Source: Anabaena lutea FACHB-196 (GTDB taxonomy: Bacteria > Cyanobacteriota > Cyanobacteriia > Cyanobacteriales > Nostocaceae). Taken from it: DNA of 64,000 nucleotides. Below, in pieces: positions 29,035-36,361 of this stretch. The DNA lies in assembly GCF_014698305.1 (NCBI RefSeq), contig NZ_JACJST010000013.1, positions 1 to 64,000 on the forward strand, given 5' to 3'. Position numbers and translations under genes: made by a program. The stretch's first letter is position 1. Every line of letters starts with the position of its first letter. The notes under the pieces are model-generated. The model was not told the origin of the DNA, made no database searches, and saw nothing but the letters and a program-made list of their open reading frames with translations.

Positions 29035-29313
29035 GTGCAAAGAAAATATTTAGCTAAAATTTTCGTGACGCTTCGGCCTTCAGTCTTAGATCCTGCTGGT
29101 GTGGCTGTACAATCTGGCCTCAAGCAACTGGGATACGATAATGTTGAGCAGGTGCGTATTGGCAAGTATATGGAAGTCACCATCATTTCTCCTGAGGAGA
29201 CTAAAGCGCGTCATGACCTAAATCAAATGTGTGACCAAATGTTAGCAAATCCGGTGATTGAAAATTACCGCTTTGAGTTGATTGAAGTCGAATCACAAAC
29301 GGGAGTGTTCTGA
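29035..29313 (+). CDS. purS: Phosphoribosylformylglycinamidine synthase subunit PurS
   Basis: A small bridging subunit of the three-part FGAM synthase (PurS-PurQ-PurL) of purine synthesis. Typical segments are FVTLRPSVLDPAGVAVQSGL, VRIGKYMEV and the C-terminal NPVIENYRFEL. The start is GTG at 29035. purQ follows after 95 bp of tandem repeat, so the two are likely one operon. purL is not in the window. Confidence 0.95.
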   Translation: MQRKYLAKIFVTLRPSVLDPAGVAVQSGLKQLGYDNVEQVRIGKYMEVTIISPEETKARHDLNQMCDQMLANPVIENYRFELIEVESQTGVF

Positions 29314-29350
29314 AGTAGGTAATGAGAAATTGGTGATTGGTGAATGGGAA

Positions 29351-29405
29351 ATAACCATTACTAATCACCAATGACTAATGACTAATGACCAATGACTTAT
29401 GACTA
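29351..29405. repeat. AATGACTA-type tandem repeat in the purS-purQ gap
   Basis: About six degenerate copies of AATGACTA/AATCACCA sit just before the purQ start and again replace a Shine-Dalgarno sequence. It is the same family as the array at 28259-28340. Confidence 0.75.
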
Positions 29406-29408
29406 ATT

Positions 29409-30083
29409 ATGAAATTCGGTGTTTTAGTTTTTCCAGGGTCTAATTGCGATCGCGATGTGGCTTATGTCACTAGAGACTTGCTAGGACAGCCAACGCGCAT
29501 GGTATGGCATCAAGAGACTGATATTAGTGATATAGATGTGGTGATTGTCCCCGGTGGCTTTAGTTACGGGGATTATTTACGTTGTGGTGCGATCGCTCGT
29601 TTTTCTCCTGTGATGCCACAAGTCATTGAACACGCACAAAAGGGTAAGTTTGTCTTGGGTATTTGTAATGGGTTTCAGGTATTAACTGAGGCTGGATTAT
29701 TACCTGGAGTATTAGCGAGAAATCAAGATTTGCATTTTATCTGCGATCGCACTCCCTTGAAAGTTGAGCGTAATAATTTACCTTGGACTCAAGGTTATGC
29801 AGAGGGTGAAATTATCACTTTACCCATTGCTCACGGGGAAGGGCGATTTTATGCTGATAAAAAGACTTTAGCAGAAATTGAAGATAACGGACAAGTTCTA
29901 TTTCGTTACCAAGGGGAAAATCCCAATGGTTCATTAAACAGCATTGCAGGGATTTGTAATCTTCAAGGTAATGTTTTAGGGATGATGCCACATCCTGAAA
30001 GAGCAGCAGATTCTGCGTTAGGTAATAGCGATGGTTTGCGGTTGTTTCAGGGTTTGTTGGGGAAAGTGGCAGCTTTGGTGTAA
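29409..30083 (+). CDS. purQ: Phosphoribosylformylglycinamidine synthase subunit PurQ
   Basis: The glutaminase subunit of FGAM synthase, which feeds ammonia to PurL. It is a class I glutamine amidotransferase fold with the nucleophile in LGICNGFQVLTEAG (the Cys of GICNG), the oxyanion strand VPGGFSYGDYLRCGA, and the His/Glu of the triad in MMPHPERA. The length of 224 residues is normal. It is downstream of purS. Confidence 0.96.
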   Translation: MKFGVLVFPGSNCDRDVAYVTRDLLGQPTRMVWHQETDISDIDVVIVPGGFSYGDYLRCGAIARFSPVMPQVIEHAQKGKFVLGICNGFQVLTEAGLLPGVLARNQDLHFICDRTPLKVERNNLPWTQGYAEGEIITLPIAHGEGRFYADKKTLAEIEDNGQVLFRYQGENPNGSLNSIAGICNLQGNVLGMMPHPERAADSALGNSDGLRLFQGLLGKVAALV

Positions 30084-30176: not shown

Positions 30177-30764
30177 TTATAGGATTTCTGTTAAATCTAA
30201 TATAAAACCTGGTAAAACATCTTCACCTGATAGACTACTAGGATTATTCAAAATTTCTACATCTTGATTAGGTCGATAAATTTCTACCCGCTTATTTTTC
30301 CTATCTATCAACCAACCCAACCTGACACCATTATCAATATATTCTTGCATTCTGTTTTGTAGTGGTTTTAAATTATCACTGGAAGAACGCAACTCAATCA
30401 CAAAATCAGGTGCAATAGGAGCAAATTTCTTTTGTTGTTCAGTGGTTAAACTATCCCAGCGTTCTTTTTTAATCCAAGCAACATCAGGAGAACATTCTGT
30501 CCCATTAGGAAGTTTAAAACCTGTTGAAGAGTCAAAACCTTTACCTAATTTAGTTTGTTTATTCCAAATTCCTACTTCGACAGCGATATCAAAATTACGA
30601 TTTCCAGTATCGCTGCCAGTTGGTGACATAATTATTAATTCTCCTGTTGCTGTGCGTTCAAATCGCAAGTCGCGGTTATTCTGACAGAGTTCAAAATATT
30701 GATCGTCTGTTAAGTTAATGTTTATTGTAAGGGTGGGAGGTAAAGTAGTGGTTGTGGTTTTCAT
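30177..30764 (-). CDS. Uma2-family (DUF820) putative restriction-like nuclease
   Basis: A 195-residue member of the family greatly expanded in cyanobacteria, with a PD-(D/E)XK-like fold. Visible features are the start FELCQNNRDLRFERTATGEL, SPDVAWIKKERW and FAPIAPDFVIELRS, where the D-x-V-x-E-L element supplies the nuclease acidic residues. The biological role of the family is not established. It lies 25 bp downstream of the ImmA-type protease gene on the same strand and may be the last gene of that operon. Confidence 0.88.
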   Translation of the reverse strand: MKTTTTTLPPTLTININLTDDQYFELCQNNRDLRFERTATGELIIMSPTGSDTGNRNFDIAVEVGIWNKQTKLGKGFDSSTGFKLPNGTECSPDVAWIKKERWDSLTTEQQKKFAPIAPDFVIELRSSSDNLKPLQNRMQEYIDNGVRLGWLIDRKNKRVEIYRPNQDVEILNNPSSLSGEDVLPGFILDLTEIL

Positions 30765-30789
30765 TATGTTTACCTCAAGGTACTAATTT

Positions 30790-31512
30790 CTAGTTTAGTG
30801 TTGTAGAGTAGGTTGCACTTTGCTTATTAAGCAAACTTGTCTGACCATTTGGTACAGCTTTACCAGGATAGATTTGCTTAGAACCTTTGGGAATGTAAAT
30901 TAAGCCAAGGTCTTGTAGACGATTTGTTAAATTAGAAATTGTGACACCAAGTTCATCTTTCATTGCATAAAGATGTTTCCAATTAGTTAAATCACGTCCT
31001 TTTCGTTTAGCCTGTAGGATCTGTCTAGGCATTAATAGACAACTAGCAAAATACTGTGCTTGCCATTCAATTTTATCTAAGTTATTTTGAACGTTGGCGT
31101 TATTAATTTTAGTTTCTGAAGTACGACACAAAAAAAGCTTTCTAGCATCTTCTATTCCTAGATTTAATTCTAGCTGTTCTGTTAATCCATCAGCTTCATC
31201 TTGATTTATATGCAGCATCCAATGTCCTAGTTCATGAGCAATTGTTGATTCTTCAAATCCTTTGCTGCGGTTGGGAATATTTTCATTAAGCGTAATTTTT
31301 CTTTTTAAAGGTTCAATTCTAGCTACTATCAAACCTTGATTATCAGAAGGTATTGTATCCCAAACTACTCTAATTTCTAGTGCATCAGCAGCACAAGTAG
31401 CCTCAAAAGGCCATCTTGGAGGAATATTTTCTAGCTCCATGATTTTGAAAACTTCATGAGCTTTTTGCTCAATTTCTTCTTTAGAATAAAATTTGTACTT
31501 GAAGATGTTCAC
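30790..31512 (-). CDS. ImmA/IrrE-family zinc metallopeptidase
   Basis: A 240-residue protein with the metalloprotease motif STIAHELGHWMLH (HELGH at 93-97). A third metal ligand is expected in the KIEWQAQYFASCLLMP region. ImmA-type proteases cleave XRE repressors to switch on mobile elements, and IrrE-type proteases switch on DNA-damage responses. The C-terminal ~90 residues (GRDLTNWKHLYAMKDELGVT, IYIPKGSKQIYPGK) are nearly the same as in the next gene, so the two arose by duplication. It has no DNA-binding domain of its own. It lies 45 bp downstream of the XRE-ImmA gene. Confidence 0.9.
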   Translation of the reverse strand: MNIFKYKFYSKEEIEQKAHEVFKIMELENIPPRWPFEATCAADALEIRVVWDTIPSDNQGLIVARIEPLKRKITLNENIPNRSKGFEESTIAHELGHWMLHINQDEADGLTEQLELNLGIEDARKLFLCRTSETKINNANVQNNLDKIEWQAQYFASCLLMPRQILQAKRKGRDLTNWKHLYAMKDELGVTISNLTNRLQDLGLIYIPKGSKQIYPGKAVPNGQTSLLNKQSATYSTTLN

Positions 31513-31557
31513 TTTTTACTCCTCACCTTCTTGATTCATAAATAGTACATTCTTTTG

Positions 31558-32646
31558 CTAAAATTCTGATTCCACTTTACCAGGATATATTTGCTTAGAA
31601 CCTTTAGGGATATAAATCCATCCAAGGTCTTGCAACCGATTGATAAGATTAGAAATCGTGACACCAAGTTCATCTTTGATTACATAAAGATGTTTCCAAT
31701 TAGTTAAATCACGCCCTTTTCGTATTTCTATCAGTATATGACGAGGCATTAGCAGACAACTAGCAAAATACTGGGCTTGCCATTCTATTTTATCAAGCTG
31801 ACTACTAGCAGTATAGTTATCAAGTGGCTCACTAGCACTACGACATAAGAATGAATTATTAGCTTCTTTAATACCAATGTTTATCTCCGTCTGTCCTAAT
31901 AAAATTTCAGTTTCATTTTGTTTAACATGAAGTAACCAATGACCAATTTCGTGAGCAATTGTCGATTCTGCGAAAGCTCCTAGAACTTCTGGAATATCTT
32001 CATTTATCAAAATTGTACGTTCTAAAGGTAAAATCATAGCTATAATCAAACCCCGATCATCAGGGGATATTCGTTCATAACAAATATTCAGATTTAGAAA
32101 GTCACATACCCTAGTAGTATCCATAGGAAATTTAGGGGTATACTGAGGTAAAAGTTGCATACGTCTTAAAACATCATTAGCTATGCACTCAATTTCATCT
32201 TTAGAATAAAAGCGATACGGCTTAACTAAGTTAAGAATTTCCTGAAGTTTTGCCACCTTATTTCTTAGTTCAGCATTTTCTTTTTGTAATCTTACAATTT
32301 GCTCATCTCGTGCCTTTACCAATGAATCAATACCCGGACTTTCCCGCATTCGACGAAATAAAGCGGGCATTTCTTTGTAATTAGCTTTAACCAATTCCTC
32401 AAAAGCTTCCGAGTCATTTTGAGTCATCCGTCCAGCTAGATAGATCAGCTCCTCTGCATTCAGACTTAAATGTTCTGCCAACGAGCGGATCACCTTCTCG
32501 CTGGGTTCAACGTGGTCGTTTTCTAGTTTGGACAAATAGGTATAGTCTACCCCTACCTTTCCAGCTAGTTCGCGTTGACTCAATCCCTTCTTTCTGCGAG
32601 CTTGCCAAATACACCTGCCAAAACTCTGACTCTCTTGTTTATCCAT
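31558..32646 (-). CDS. XRE-family regulator fused to an ImmA/IrrE metallopeptidase domain
   Basis: The N-terminal HTH (about residues 10-70 of the longest frame: ARRKKGLSQRELAGKVGVDY) is followed by a helical linker and coiled coil (about 80-145). An ImmA domain follows, with STIAHEIGHWLLH (HEIGH near 236-240) and QLDKIEWQAQYFASCLLMP. DNA binding and a protease in one chain suggest a self-contained stress-responsive regulator. It is divergent from the Argonaute operon, and palindromes at 32819-32899 are candidate operators. TTG at 32658 or GTG at 32652 could extend it; ATG 32646 (MDKQESQSF) is chosen. No Shine-Dalgarno sequence is clear. Confidence 0.9.
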   Translation of the reverse strand: MDKQESQSFGRCIWQARRKKGLSQRELAGKVGVDYTYLSKLENDHVEPSEKVIRSLAEHLSLNAEELIYLAGRMTQNDSEAFEELVKANYKEMPALFRRMRESPGIDSLVKARDEQIVRLQKENAELRNKVAKLQEILNLVKPYRFYSKDEIECIANDVLRRMQLLPQYTPKFPMDTTRVCDFLNLNICYERISPDDRGLIIAMILPLERTILINEDIPEVLGAFAESTIAHEIGHWLLHVKQNETEILLGQTEINIGIKEANNSFLCRSASEPLDNYTASSQLDKIEWQAQYFASCLLMPRHILIEIRKGRDLTNWKHLYVIKDELGVTISNLINRLQDLGWIYIPKGSKQIYPGKVESEF

Positions 32647-32818
32647 AATCACATTCAACTGCTTGACACAATTCCAGAAGCATACATGATAAGCCTTCTC
32701 TTGGTTTGAGTCATAAGAGGCTGAAAGCTTTGTAGGAAAAGGATTTTCAAGATTTGTTGGGCAATAAATTACCCAAATTTTTCAGCCTTTGAATAACTCA
32801 TAGATAAATAGTATCAGT

Positions 32819-32899
32819 GTTGAATAAATAAATCAACATAAATTTATTATGGGTAGAGTGGTTGACAATTTTTGTACAAGTTGAATAATATAGTTCAAC
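32819..32899. promoter_or_regulatory. Candidate operators between the XRE-ImmA gene and the Argonaute operon
   Basis: Two similar palindromes lie in the divergent region: GTTGA-N9-TCAAC at 32819-32837 and GTTGAA-N8-TTCAAC at 32880-32899. A further half site GTTGAA lies near 32924. Spacing and similarity suggest binding sites for a dimeric HTH protein, most simply the XRE-ImmA regulator. This is an inference from symmetry and position. Confidence 0.55.
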
Positions 32900-32998
32900 A
32901 CCGAACAACTAATATCTTGCCTTGTTGAAATTATATAGCAATTCAGGCAGCTATACTGATGTTTGTTGTGTTATATTTCGTTACACAAGAGCAAAACT

Positions 32999-33220
32999 AT
33001 GAATGCACAATCGTTGAACCCTGATCAACTAAGCTTTTCCATTGGTAGACCTCTACCAGTTCTACTTGAAGAAATTCAAAAATCAAGCCGCAATCCACAA
33101 CTCAGGAAGGCTGCGGAACAGATGCTAGAAGGCTTGCGTACACTGGAAATAGCAACCGAGATTGGTGTATCTAAATCTAAGAGAGCTAATACAGCAATCT
33201 ACGAAATTCTGACCAAGTAA
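32999..33220 (+). CDS. Small helical protein, first gene of the Argonaute operon
   Basis: A 73-residue protein, [13 protein letters not shown] onward, with a predicted helical middle ([20 protein letters not shown]) and a basic SKSKRAN segment. No family is recognised. It lies 37 bp upstream of the nuclease gene on the same strand, so co-transcription is likely. It may be an accessory subunit or a small DNA-binding protein; nothing in the sequence decides. The ATG at 32999 is preferred over a longer frame from 32963. Confidence 0.65.
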
Positions 33221-33257
33221 AACTTTTTTCTCTGCTAAATTCTGGGACTTGACATCA

Positions 33258-34079
33258 ATGAGCCAAAATTGGCTACCATTTGCCAGCTACAACCTTTGGT
33301 TACAGTTTTCCCCACAGATAGGGAAAGAACATTTACACTGTGACATGAAACGAGGTTTTACAAAAGCGCGATCGCGTGAACCTGCGGTTGCAGCAATCTT
33401 GGCAAGTGATAGCACTCCTCAGCAAATTGGATTAGTAGCACAAAAGGGGGTTTACGAATTCCACCAAAACCCCCATCTTTTATACCAAGAAGATGGTGTA
33501 GAACAAATAGCAGAGATTCTGGAATTGCAGAAAGAGTCAGATTTAGTTCAGCAGCGAGCAATTCAGATACTGAAAAATTACCAGCAAAATCCAATTCTTG
33601 CTGAGAAGAGAATTATTAAACTCAGTCGGGGTGATGAAAGTTATCCAGATCCAATTTTGATTAAGCAGGGTAATCAATCTTGGAAATTTTATGCTGCAAT
33701 TGACTGTATTTTTGCGGAAGAAGATGATACTTTGCACATTTTAGATTTCAAAACCGGTCACTCTGATTTTGATTTGCGGCAAGCATATATTTACTTACTA
33801 GCTGCCAGTTATTTGTATCCAGAACAAAAAGCAGTAGCATCTTTTTATAACTTAGAAAGTAGTAAGTGGTCTAAACCTATCAGCGCAACATCTAACACAC
33901 TTAAAGCTTTTCAGATAGAGCTTACTTTAATAGCTCAAAGACATCAAGAACATTTGAGACGCTACCGAGAAAATTCTGCTGATTTCAGTCAAATATTTCC
34001 CCCAAATCCCGGTGTAAGCTGTCGCTACTGTTTATTTAACTCAATCTGTGATTTTAGCATATTAGAGGTTTCTACATGA
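33258..34079 (+). CDS. Cas4-like PD-(D/E)XK nuclease with putative Fe-S cluster
   Basis: A 273-residue nuclease of the RecB/Cas4 group. The core shows [12 protein letters not shown] followed by [12 protein letters not shown] (D-x-K near 163-165), then the [13 protein letters not shown] helix typical of RecB-family motif QxxxY. A Cys at residue 28 (HLHCDMKRG) and a C-terminal [10 protein letters not shown] (C-x2-C-x5-C) make the four-cysteine pattern of the Cas4/AddB 4Fe-4S cluster. Its stop overlaps the Argonaute start as ATGA, so translation is coupled. TTG 33249 is an alternative start. Cas4-like nucleases are known neighbours of prokaryotic Argonautes. Confidence 0.88.
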
Positions 34080-36361
34080 CTGCTGTTGTAATTCAATCTC
34101 CCCAAAAAACTAATGTATCCACAATATTTTTGTCGGAACTATTTTTACTAAATATTCCCCAACCTAACTTAATCTGTTTTCGACTGACTCCCAGAGTAGA
34201 TACTGAAATAGGAAATAAGTTGAGTTGGCGATTTAGTCAAAAATTTCCTGATATCATAGTCATTTTTGCAGAGGGTAAATTTTGGGTTTTAGCTAAACCT
34301 GATCAACAAATGCCAAGTTTAGATGAATTGCGAAAAGCTTTAACAGAAATTCAAGAGGAATTAAAAAAAGATATTGGTGATCGTTATTATTCAATCCAAT
34401 GGGTAAGCCAACCACAAATATCTGCTGATATTCTTTCACAACTGGCTATAAGAATATTAAAAGTTAGACGGCCTTTTTCATATCAGTCTATTACATTTAA
34501 CAATAATGTTGAAGTTAGACGTGAAGCAAGATTTTGGTCAGAAACAATTGAAATTCAAAATATTCCACTTCCAGCTATTGCTATAACCGTTCGTAGTCCT
34601 TTTGTATTTAAAGGAAATTTGGCTGAATTTTACGAAAATCATCCTTACAGACAAAATCCTAGAGATTTATTAATTGGTTTAAAAGTTCGAGATATTGAAA
34701 AGGGTAGTTCAGCTACTATTGTAGATATCGAAGGAACTATTGAAGAGCGTGAAGAAGAATTACTCAAGTATAAGCCTGCGTCAACCAGTGAAACTGCCAT
34801 TCGTGAAGCACCAAGAGAACAACCTGTTGTAGTTGTGCAGTTTGGTAAAGATAAAAAGCGATATATTTATGCAATGGCTGCTCTTATTCCCTGTATCACA
34901 GAAGAGACTACTGAAAGATTTGATATAAATTTTGGCGATTTAAAGAAAGAAACTAAAATTCCTTATCAAGACCGACAAATAATTTTAGCTTCCTACAAAC
35001 AAGAAGCTGAACCAGCTTTAAAAATTTATGGATTTGAGTTATCTAAAAAATGTCTAAACAGCAGCAAAAGTAGCAATGGCGCTGAATTATTCTTACCACT
35101 CAATTTTCAACTTGAAGATACTCAACTTCTATTTGGAAAGGACAAATCTGGACAAAATTTTATTGGTCGAAGAGGCGATATACTTAAGGGACTAATAAGA
35201 GGTGGTGTTTACCGTCGTCATCCTCGTTATGAAAATCAATCTATGCCAATTCGTATTACAGTATTAAAAGTAGGCGATTTTCAGGTTAGAGGATCATTTA
35301 TTGGTGAACTTAGACAGCGTTTGGAAAGATATCATTTTGAAACTCTGAAAATAGAACCAGATCAAATAAAAATTGTTTCTATTAGTGGCTTAAGTAATGC
35401 TGAAGTTAGAGTACAAGTAGAAAAAAATATTGATGAATTAGTCATAATTCCTAGTGAAATTGTTTTAGTATTTTTACCACAAACTGATCGGTATGCAGAT
35501 AATAATGATGATGGCAGCTTGTATTCTTTTATTTATTCAAGACTGCTCCGACGTGGAATTGCTAGTCAAGTAATCTACGAAGACACTTTGAACAATCCAA
35601 GTAATTATGGCAATATTCTCAATCAAGTAATTATAGGAATGTTAGCCAAGTTAGGAAATTTACCTTATGTTTTGGCTGAACCTTTAGAGATTGCTGATTA
35701 TTTCATCGGGTTGGATGTTTCCAGAATTGCTAAGAAAAAAACAAATGGGAGTAGAAATGCTTGTGCAAGTGTGCGCCTTTATGATAAGCGAGGAGAGTTT
35801 ATTCGATATCGAATAGAAGATGCTTTTACCGAAGGTGAAATAATTGATAAACAAACACTAGAAAAGTTTCTTCCATCTACTGAATTAAGTCAAAAAACTG
35901 TATTAATTTACCGTGATGGACATTTTTGTGGTGATGAAATAAAGAATTTAAGAGAAAGAGCAAAAGTTATTGGTTCAAAGTTTATTTTGGTGGAGTGTGT
36001 AAAATCTCAGATTCCACGACTATATAACTTTCAGCAGTCAGTAGTGAAAGCACCAAGTAAAGGGTTAGCTCTTCGCTTATCCCCATATGAAGTAATTTTA
36101 GTGACTACTGAAGTGAAGTCTGAAAAAATGGGTTTACCTCAACCGCTGCGTTTAAGGGTTATTCCAGATGCTGATCAAGAACAGCAAGTATCAATAGAAA
36201 GTTTAATAGAAGCTACACTTAAACTAACATTGCTGCATCACGGTGCATTGAAAGAACCGCGCTTACCTGTTCCCCTTTATGGATCTGACAAAATAGCTTA
36301 TCGGCGATTACAAGGAATTGCTCCTGGTACAGTGGATGGCGATCGCCAGTTTTGGCTTTAA
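34076..36361 (+). CDS. Long prokaryotic Argonaute (PIWI-domain protein), catalytically complete by motif
   Basis: A 761-residue Argonaute, predicted to use small guides to cut invading nucleic acid. The N and PAZ-like parts span about 1-430. The MID domain (about 440-535) shows [18 protein letters not shown] and [15 protein letters not shown], where the Arg/Gln/Lys positions fit a 5'-phosphate pocket. The PIWI domain (about 540-761) has D547 in FIGLDVSR, a glutamate finger in EGEIID (E588 by position), D614 in LIYRDGHF and D738 in [12 protein letters not shown], so the DEDD tetrad seems intact. The C-terminus ends in FWL, which packs under the MID/PIWI cleft in the family. It is coupled to a Cas4-like nuclease. 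Guide and target type cannot be read from sequence. Confidence 0.93.

Follow-up and report, generated by a model that had tools for sequence, protein, structure and literature searches.

A candidate proteolysis-relieved repressor switch facing a cyanobacterial Argonaute and Cas4-like nuclease operon

What turns a bacterial Argonaute on? To our knowledge, most accounts of long-A Argonautes treat them as stand-alone defences. The question of their induction is raised by a locus of Anabaena lutea FACHB-196 (assembly GCF_014698305.1, contig NZ_JACJST010000013.1, positions 1 to 64,000; this stretch of 64,000 nucleotides is called the window here). In this locus, forward-strand genes for a small protein of 73 amino acids (aa), a Cas4-like nuclease and an Argonaute face divergent genes for an XRE repressor fused to an M78 (ImmA-type) metallopeptidase, a second M78 protein and a Uma2 protein (Table 1). 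All six open reading frames (ORFs) lie where an initial annotation of the same DNA had placed them. From a computational comparison with related genomes, we put at roughly two in three the probability that a repressor switch relieved by proteolysis has been placed on this Argonaute defence operon.

The divergent arrangement is not peculiar to the window. We searched for the Argonaute in three overlapping genome sets and obtained matches in 25 of 386 genomes for the phylum, 50 of 217 for the family and 88 of 388 for the order. One hundred loci were chosen by hand for comparison with the window, leaving out short fragments and some long matches (e.g. G097, G312, G754 and G765). Counting the window, an Argonaute ORF of at least 600 aa was present in 95 loci and was accompanied by a Cas4-like gene in 89; L145, L152 and L157 have no Argonaute ORF of 600 aa and stand outside the 89. 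XRE and M78 genes were both found in 66 of the 89 loci, XRE only in two, a broken XRE with M78 in one and neither in 20, where the rows are related sequences and not independent events. The 66 loci span 16 families, and all of them are divergent, with no same-strand match to XRE or M78. The usual regulator is a separate XRE protein, 106-165 aa long in 60 of 63 cases (219-237 aa in the other three), beside a protease that is mostly 200-240 aa long. The initial annotation had made its reading depend on the conservation of the divergent genes beside the Argonaute in relatives, and the XRE-ImmA regulator facing the Argonaute-nuclease operon is indeed a real and conserved arrangement.

The shared divergent region also carries a conserved DNA signature. 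The initial annotation had pointed to paired palindromes; two are present in the window, at promoter-like elements, and they leave a footprint in relatives. Between 32640 and 33010, five promoter-like sites were found against 1.9 expected. In the window's own genome (6.06 Mb), GTTGAATAA-N5-7-TCAAC matches twice, both times in the window at the two palindromes, and a reversed-pattern control gave one forward and one reverse match; the own-genome count is therefore weak by itself, and it is the footprint in relatives that counts. We compared 70 loci having both a Cas4 ORF and an XRE match with 200 dinucleotide shuffles. GTTGA-N8-10-TCAAC with at most one mismatch occurs in 68 of the 70 loci (shuffles: mean 2.9, max 8), a perfect palindrome in 48 (mean 0.1, max 2) and two or more palindromes in 41 (mean 0.05, max 1), a contrast that is post hoc and not independent because the motif was first read from the same regions, though the gap is large. 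As a control we took 18 loci from the 29 that lack XRE, leaving out L080 because of its short contig and L119-L121, L154, L175-L177 and L179-L181 because Cas4 was undetected, cut or positioned other than upstream. A one-mismatch site was present in four of the 18 (L107, L117, L126 and L157), above the 0.75 expected from the shuffle rate, so that some of these sites may be remnants; in L107, L126 and L157 the palindrome lies upstream of Cas4 with no XRE found, possibly as the trace of a lost switch.

In 41 loci without the fusion, 35-60 nt separate the XRE start from the beginning of the first site. Another site lies no more than 70 bp away in 31 of them, at a centre-to-centre distance of 40-43 bp in 18 and 33 bp in eight. 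In the set with an 8-nt spacer (10 different sequences), the consensus of the first site contains TTGACt, followed after 17 bp by TAG.gT. The divergent region of L145 holds seven operator-like sites in ~460 bp in a repeated arrangement. We also considered whether the palindrome class coevolves with the repressor, which was not supported: the class changes 20 times on the XRE tree and 22 times on the Argonaute tree.

The catalytic residues of the enzymes under this putative control are intact. In agreement with the initial annotation, the Argonaute has the complete DEDD tetrad (D547, E588, D614 and D738), its start at 34076 overlaps the nuclease end at 34079 in an ATGA read directly from the sequence, and the nuclease contains D-x-K (D166 and K168) and four cysteines (C31, C258, C261 and C267). 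In alignments including the window, all 95 Argonautes share D547, E588 and D614, and at the fourth position 81 have D, 11 have H and three have a gap; the four nuclease cysteines, D152, D166 and K168 are kept in 92 of 92 rows. The nearest PDB chain to the Argonaute, which has one match in its own genome, is 9iad, 'Protein argonaute' (939 bits), and those nearest to the nuclease are 9iab (379 bits) and 9iac (327 bits). The pair had been described as a known association, and PADLOC holds models for both partners.

The divergent proteases resemble those of a known switch. The separate M78 protein of the window has its best PADLOC match in capP (1.3e-19), as do the M78 proteins of three relatives. 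It matches the CapP structure 7t5t by profile (E 2.1e-6), and in Foldseek 7t5t ranks first (E 1.9e-5, template modelling score 0.47 by query), followed by IrrE/PprI. Of 77 M78 rows, 76 preserve HEXGH, and E149 is likewise present in 76. Between the HEXXH zinc motif and the glutamate of EWQAQ lies C129, a cysteine in 73 of 75 rows; CapP 7t5t has FxC in the same interval of the alignment, the two cysteines being unpaired by the aligner. CapP presumably contains a cysteine switch, which found no confirmation among the matches listed by our literature search. The XRE-M78 fusion, whose likely ATG start is at 32646, gives partial PADLOC matches to RmrA, capP and capH, the best being RmrA (1.7e-18), above capP. 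Beyond the locus, the own genome contains three further M78 matches (G000 C56, C11 and C7; L188-L190).

From these features we propose the following scheme. XRE would bind the GTTGA-N8-10-TCAAC operators between the divergent genes, thereby repressing the Cas4-Argonaute operon and probably its own gene. On a signal, the M78 metalloprotease would cut the XRE repressor and the operon would be derepressed, allowing the Cas4-like nuclease and the catalytically intact Argonaute to act on invading DNA. In the window variant, where the repressor has its own M78 domain and the second M78 protein is kept, either may perform the cleavage. By analogy with CapP and PprI, the signal is most likely single-stranded DNA (ssDNA) or DNA damage, and the defence would be turned on by stress instead of being constitutive.

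Several points weigh against this scheme, in addition to the relatedness of the rows and the post hoc contrast given above. Its binding, repression, cleavage and signal are read from sequence and from homologues. Neither XRE nor M78 is present in 20 of the 89 loci, of which one, L080, is on a 3.7 kb contig and nine form one branch of the Argonaute tree (L111, L113-L118, L123 and L124; Shimodaira-Hasegawa-like approximate likelihood ratio test, SH-aLRT, 100); L109 and L110 have XRE without M78, and the XRE of L091 is broken. The similar numbers of changes on the two trees mean that coevolution of site and repressor is not shown, and the M78 subfamily is not specific to Argonaute loci. The M78 structure model is moderate (predicted local distance difference test score, pLDDT, 66.7). 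Furthermore, most of 70 M78 ORFs are 200-240 aa long, and the capP model of 242 positions is matched only to position 150 in the window protein and to 142, 153 and 150 in the three relatives, the four scanned proteins being 218-240 aa long. The C-terminal part, including the GAF-like domain that contacts ssDNA in PprI, therefore appears to be missing from the window-type M78, and the trigger may differ. Accordingly, the description of the locus as an inducible, damage-triggered version was overstated in the initial annotation, where the trigger was concerned: damage as the signal comes from the homologues.

If the trigger does differ, the same switch could respond to redox or metal through the near-invariant FLCR cysteine, or to a phage or plasmid product, instead of ssDNA. 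This is suggested by the conservation of C129, by the FxC of CapP in the same interval, unpaired as it is by the aligner, and by the lack of an apparent GAF-like domain in M78. However, the nearest solved relatives, CapP and PprI, are both ssDNA-activated, and a conserved cysteine can serve latency instead of sensing. We regard this alternative as rather unlikely.

A second possibility is that XRE and M78 form an independent, autoregulating passenger that is a mere neighbour of the Argonaute operon, either toxin-antitoxin-like, in the manner of RmrA of RosmerTA, or a regulator of a mobile element. The match of the fused protein to RmrA models, the Cas4-Argonaute loci without XRE and M78, and the M78 proteins found away from Argonaute are in keeping with a passenger. 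Against it stand the divergent neighbourhood in 66 of 89 loci, the position of the sites on forward promoter-like elements and the scarcity of sites where XRE is absent (4/18 vs 68/70); in addition, a PADLOC scan of the six window proteins gave no match to the partner RmrT. We consider a passenger improbable. We give just as little credit to a model in which XRE is a plain autorepressor, or an activator of the operon, and is not cut by M78 on induction. This would suit the palindromes and XRE kept without detected M78 in L109 and L110 and the putative nature of the cleavage, but not the preserved HEXGH or the pair arrangement matching that of CapH and CapP.

The proteolysis-relieved switch may extend beyond the Argonaute. 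The M78 subfamily occurs in 36 of the 386 genomes of the phylum sample, and we compared 20 M78 places that are not at an Argonaute (L198-L217). There a related XRE and M78 pair faces an operon for proteins of unknown function: one or more of five genes, with reference sizes of 88, 233, about 122-128, 325 and 359 aa, are encoded on the opposite strand in 16 of the 20. L211 is counted among the 16 with only a 42% match to the 88-aa gene, and none of the five genes was found in L207, L208, L212 and L217. A palindrome with at most one mismatch is present in 18 of the 20 regions (shuffles: mean 0.8, max 5; L208 and L216 have none) and a perfect one in 10 (mean 0.02, max 1). The five opposite-strand proteins gave no Pfam match above the curated cut-off, the 325-aa protein matches phrog_29668 (function unknown), and the label 'coiled-coil-like' for this second operon comes from reading the sequences by eye, not from a computed prediction. 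Three genomes (G099, G203 and G105) have one XRE and M78 copy at the Argonaute and another elsewhere. Tentatively, cyanobacterial Argonaute defence might be inducible through a small stress regulon, in which a CapHP-type switch cassette is exchanged between loci and a switch of its kind also serves a second, different operon; Argonaute would then be made only upon DNA damage or invasion, and the fused form with two proteases would be double-gated.

Exchange of the cassette is seen among three loci. Over 3125 bp of their Cas4-Argonaute genes, L089 and L091 share 96.7% identity, against 53% for their M78 proteins, and the regulator block of L091 is 97.9% identical to that of L087 over 1639 bp with Argonautes 69% identical. 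The regulatory block was thus exchanged as a unit, at least here, and was swapped between near-identical Cas4-Argonaute loci. The copy in L091 looks damaged, with XRE matching residues 1-43 and then 71-365, and no match to the small gene was found there in the locus comparison. Cas4 genes are 96-97% identical between L089 and L091 and between L091 and L087, despite the 69% identity of the L091 and L087 Argonautes; from these identities, exchange also took place between Cas4 and Argonaute.

The two ImmA-type proteases noted initially are present in the window, and as a general form they do not hold: an intact XRE-M78 fusion with a second M78 occurs in seven loci, window included, and a separate XRE with one M78 is commoner. 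The M78 tree groups the M78 domains of the seven fusions with the L112 copy in one branch of eight rows (SH-aLRT 97), and the stand-alone M78 proteins of the fused loci lie elsewhere, in an 11-row branch mixed with other loci (SH-aLRT 92). A single change accounts for the fusion on the XRE tree, against three on the Argonaute tree. The fusion with two M78 domains in the window is a derived variant of the separate XRE and M78 form.

For the small protein, an ATG start at 32999 (73 aa) is more probable than TTG at 32963 (85 aa). It had no match in Pfam, PADLOC or NCBIfam as the 85-aa form, nor in PADLOC or PHROGs as the 73-aa form, and its uninformative structure model (pLDDT 76, predicted template modelling score 0.51) had no PDB match with E <= 0.001. 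In L147 a gene of ~190 aa lies between the XRE and Cas4 genes (Pfam MMADHC 1.9e-15, from a protein translated by eye), and similar stretches occur in L080, L148, L156, L159, L161 and L162. Uma2, initially listed among the divergent genes, is probably a background neighbour rather than a component because the window's own genome contains 68 Pfam Uma2 matches, a count that covers this genome alone; Uma2 is also seen upstream of many Argonaute loci in the locus comparison, so it may still be associated with Argonaute. Next to it, purQ occupies 29035-30083 of the window, and in the window and 12 other loci (L094, L096, L103, L105, L106, L111, L119, L124, L138, L140, L142 and L150) purQ precedes the Argonaute start by ~0.8-8 kb, which suggests either a site shared since long ago or a hotspot for insertion. 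In a look for an empty site within the genus, homology to the window stopped at the purQ stop in G306, G388, G389 and G390, whose stretches run 1.5 kb beyond. L119 has an Argonaute remnant (query residues 374-761, two stops) beside Uma2 and purQ with no Cas4 match: a copy in decay, in a setting of the same kind as that of the window.

Table 1 Features of the Argonaute locus in the window (positions 30,177 to 36,361).
Feature	Position	Strand	Support or remark
Uma2-family protein	30177..30764	-	Pfam Uma2 4e-47; neighbour, probably outside the system
Second, separate M78/ImmA-type metallopeptidase (HELGH, C129 in FLCR, E149)	30790..31512	-	Peptidase_M78 1.2e-10
XRE repressor fused to M78 metallopeptidase (HEIGH)	31558..32658	-	HTH_3 1.5e-12; Peptidase_M78 3.5e-10
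Operator-like palindrome O1, GTTGAATAAATAAATCAAC	32819..32837	.	Footprint in relatives
Promoter-like TTGACA-N16-AATAAT	32862..32889	+	11/12 consensus positions; putative promoter of small gene, Cas4 and Argonaute
Operator-like palindrome O2, GTTGAATAATATAGTTCAAC	32880..32899	.	Covers -10 of the forward promoter-like site; footprint in relatives
Small protein, 73 aa	32999..33220	+	Similar ORFs in 17 other loci (18 with the window)
Cas4-like PD-(D/E)XK nuclease, Argonaute-associated, four conserved Cys	33249..34079	+	PADLOC Aga_Cas4-like_Nuc 467 bits; Pfam PDDEXK_1
Long-A Argonaute, 761 aa, DEDD intact	34076..36361	+	PADLOC pAgo_II 1170 bits; Pfam Piwi

With a conserved pair of repressor and protease and with candidate operators mapped, Argonaute induction becomes testable in culturable cyanobacteria. 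If the proposed switch is real, CapHP-type control would extend to Argonautes, guide production could be tied to the signal that induces the enzymes, and the second operon would offer a route to genes acting together with Argonaute and nuclease.

Pairs of long-A Argonaute and Cas4-like nuclease are reportedly the subject of a 2025 Molecular Cell study, from which we assume the structures 9iab-9iad to come. The proteins of the window belong to the same families as the known cyanobacterial pair represented by the two PADLOC models and by 9iab, 9iac and 9iad, and have the same catalytic residues; the difference is that the pair in the window sits behind an XRE and M78 switch. RSF1010 plasmids are reported to be limited in S. 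elongatus by SeAgo and, separately, by a Cas4-like nuclease (PMC10653904). The genes of pAgo operons include Cas4 and DNA-binding proteins, and these operons were defined as same-strand genes (PMC6299218), so that a divergent regulator would fall outside them. Among the matches listed by our literature search, which covered titles and abstract starts with most subscription journals outside its range, there was no description of XRE and M78 control of an Argonaute.

Control of an XRE-type repressor by an M78 protease is familiar from other systems, including ImmA-ImmR, where the protease cuts the repressor. PprI is an ssDNA-activated M78 protease that cuts the XRE-type repressor DdrO and contacts ssDNA through a C-terminal GAF-like domain (PMC10904395). 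The window shares with PprI(IrrE)-DdrO the idea of an M78 protease set against an XRE-type repressor and differs in its local operon control and in having no apparent GAF-like domain. CapH and CapP, said to have been described by Lau et al. in 2022, resemble the window-type loci in that genes for an XRE repressor and an M78 metallopeptidase adjoin each other next to an immune operon. Among solved structures CapP comes nearest to the window M78, and the HEXXH and downstream glutamate are intact here. The differences are that the operon is Argonaute-Cas4, that XRE and M78 are fused in some loci and that the protease is shorter, the part of CapP C-terminal to its peptidase and helix-turn-helix-like regions, presumably a GAF-like domain, being unmatched. 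As to a repressor that binds the promoter region of the immune operon, what is seen here is a palindrome footprint in 68 of 70 loci, a candidate for such binding. In the accessible text of PMC13373217, CapH and CapP govern other immune operons, CapP is ssDNA-activated, and neither 'argonaute' nor 'pago' occurs. Judged by its homologues and its anatomy, the XRE and M78 switch on the already known Argonaute-Cas4 pair would be a variant of CapHP-type control.

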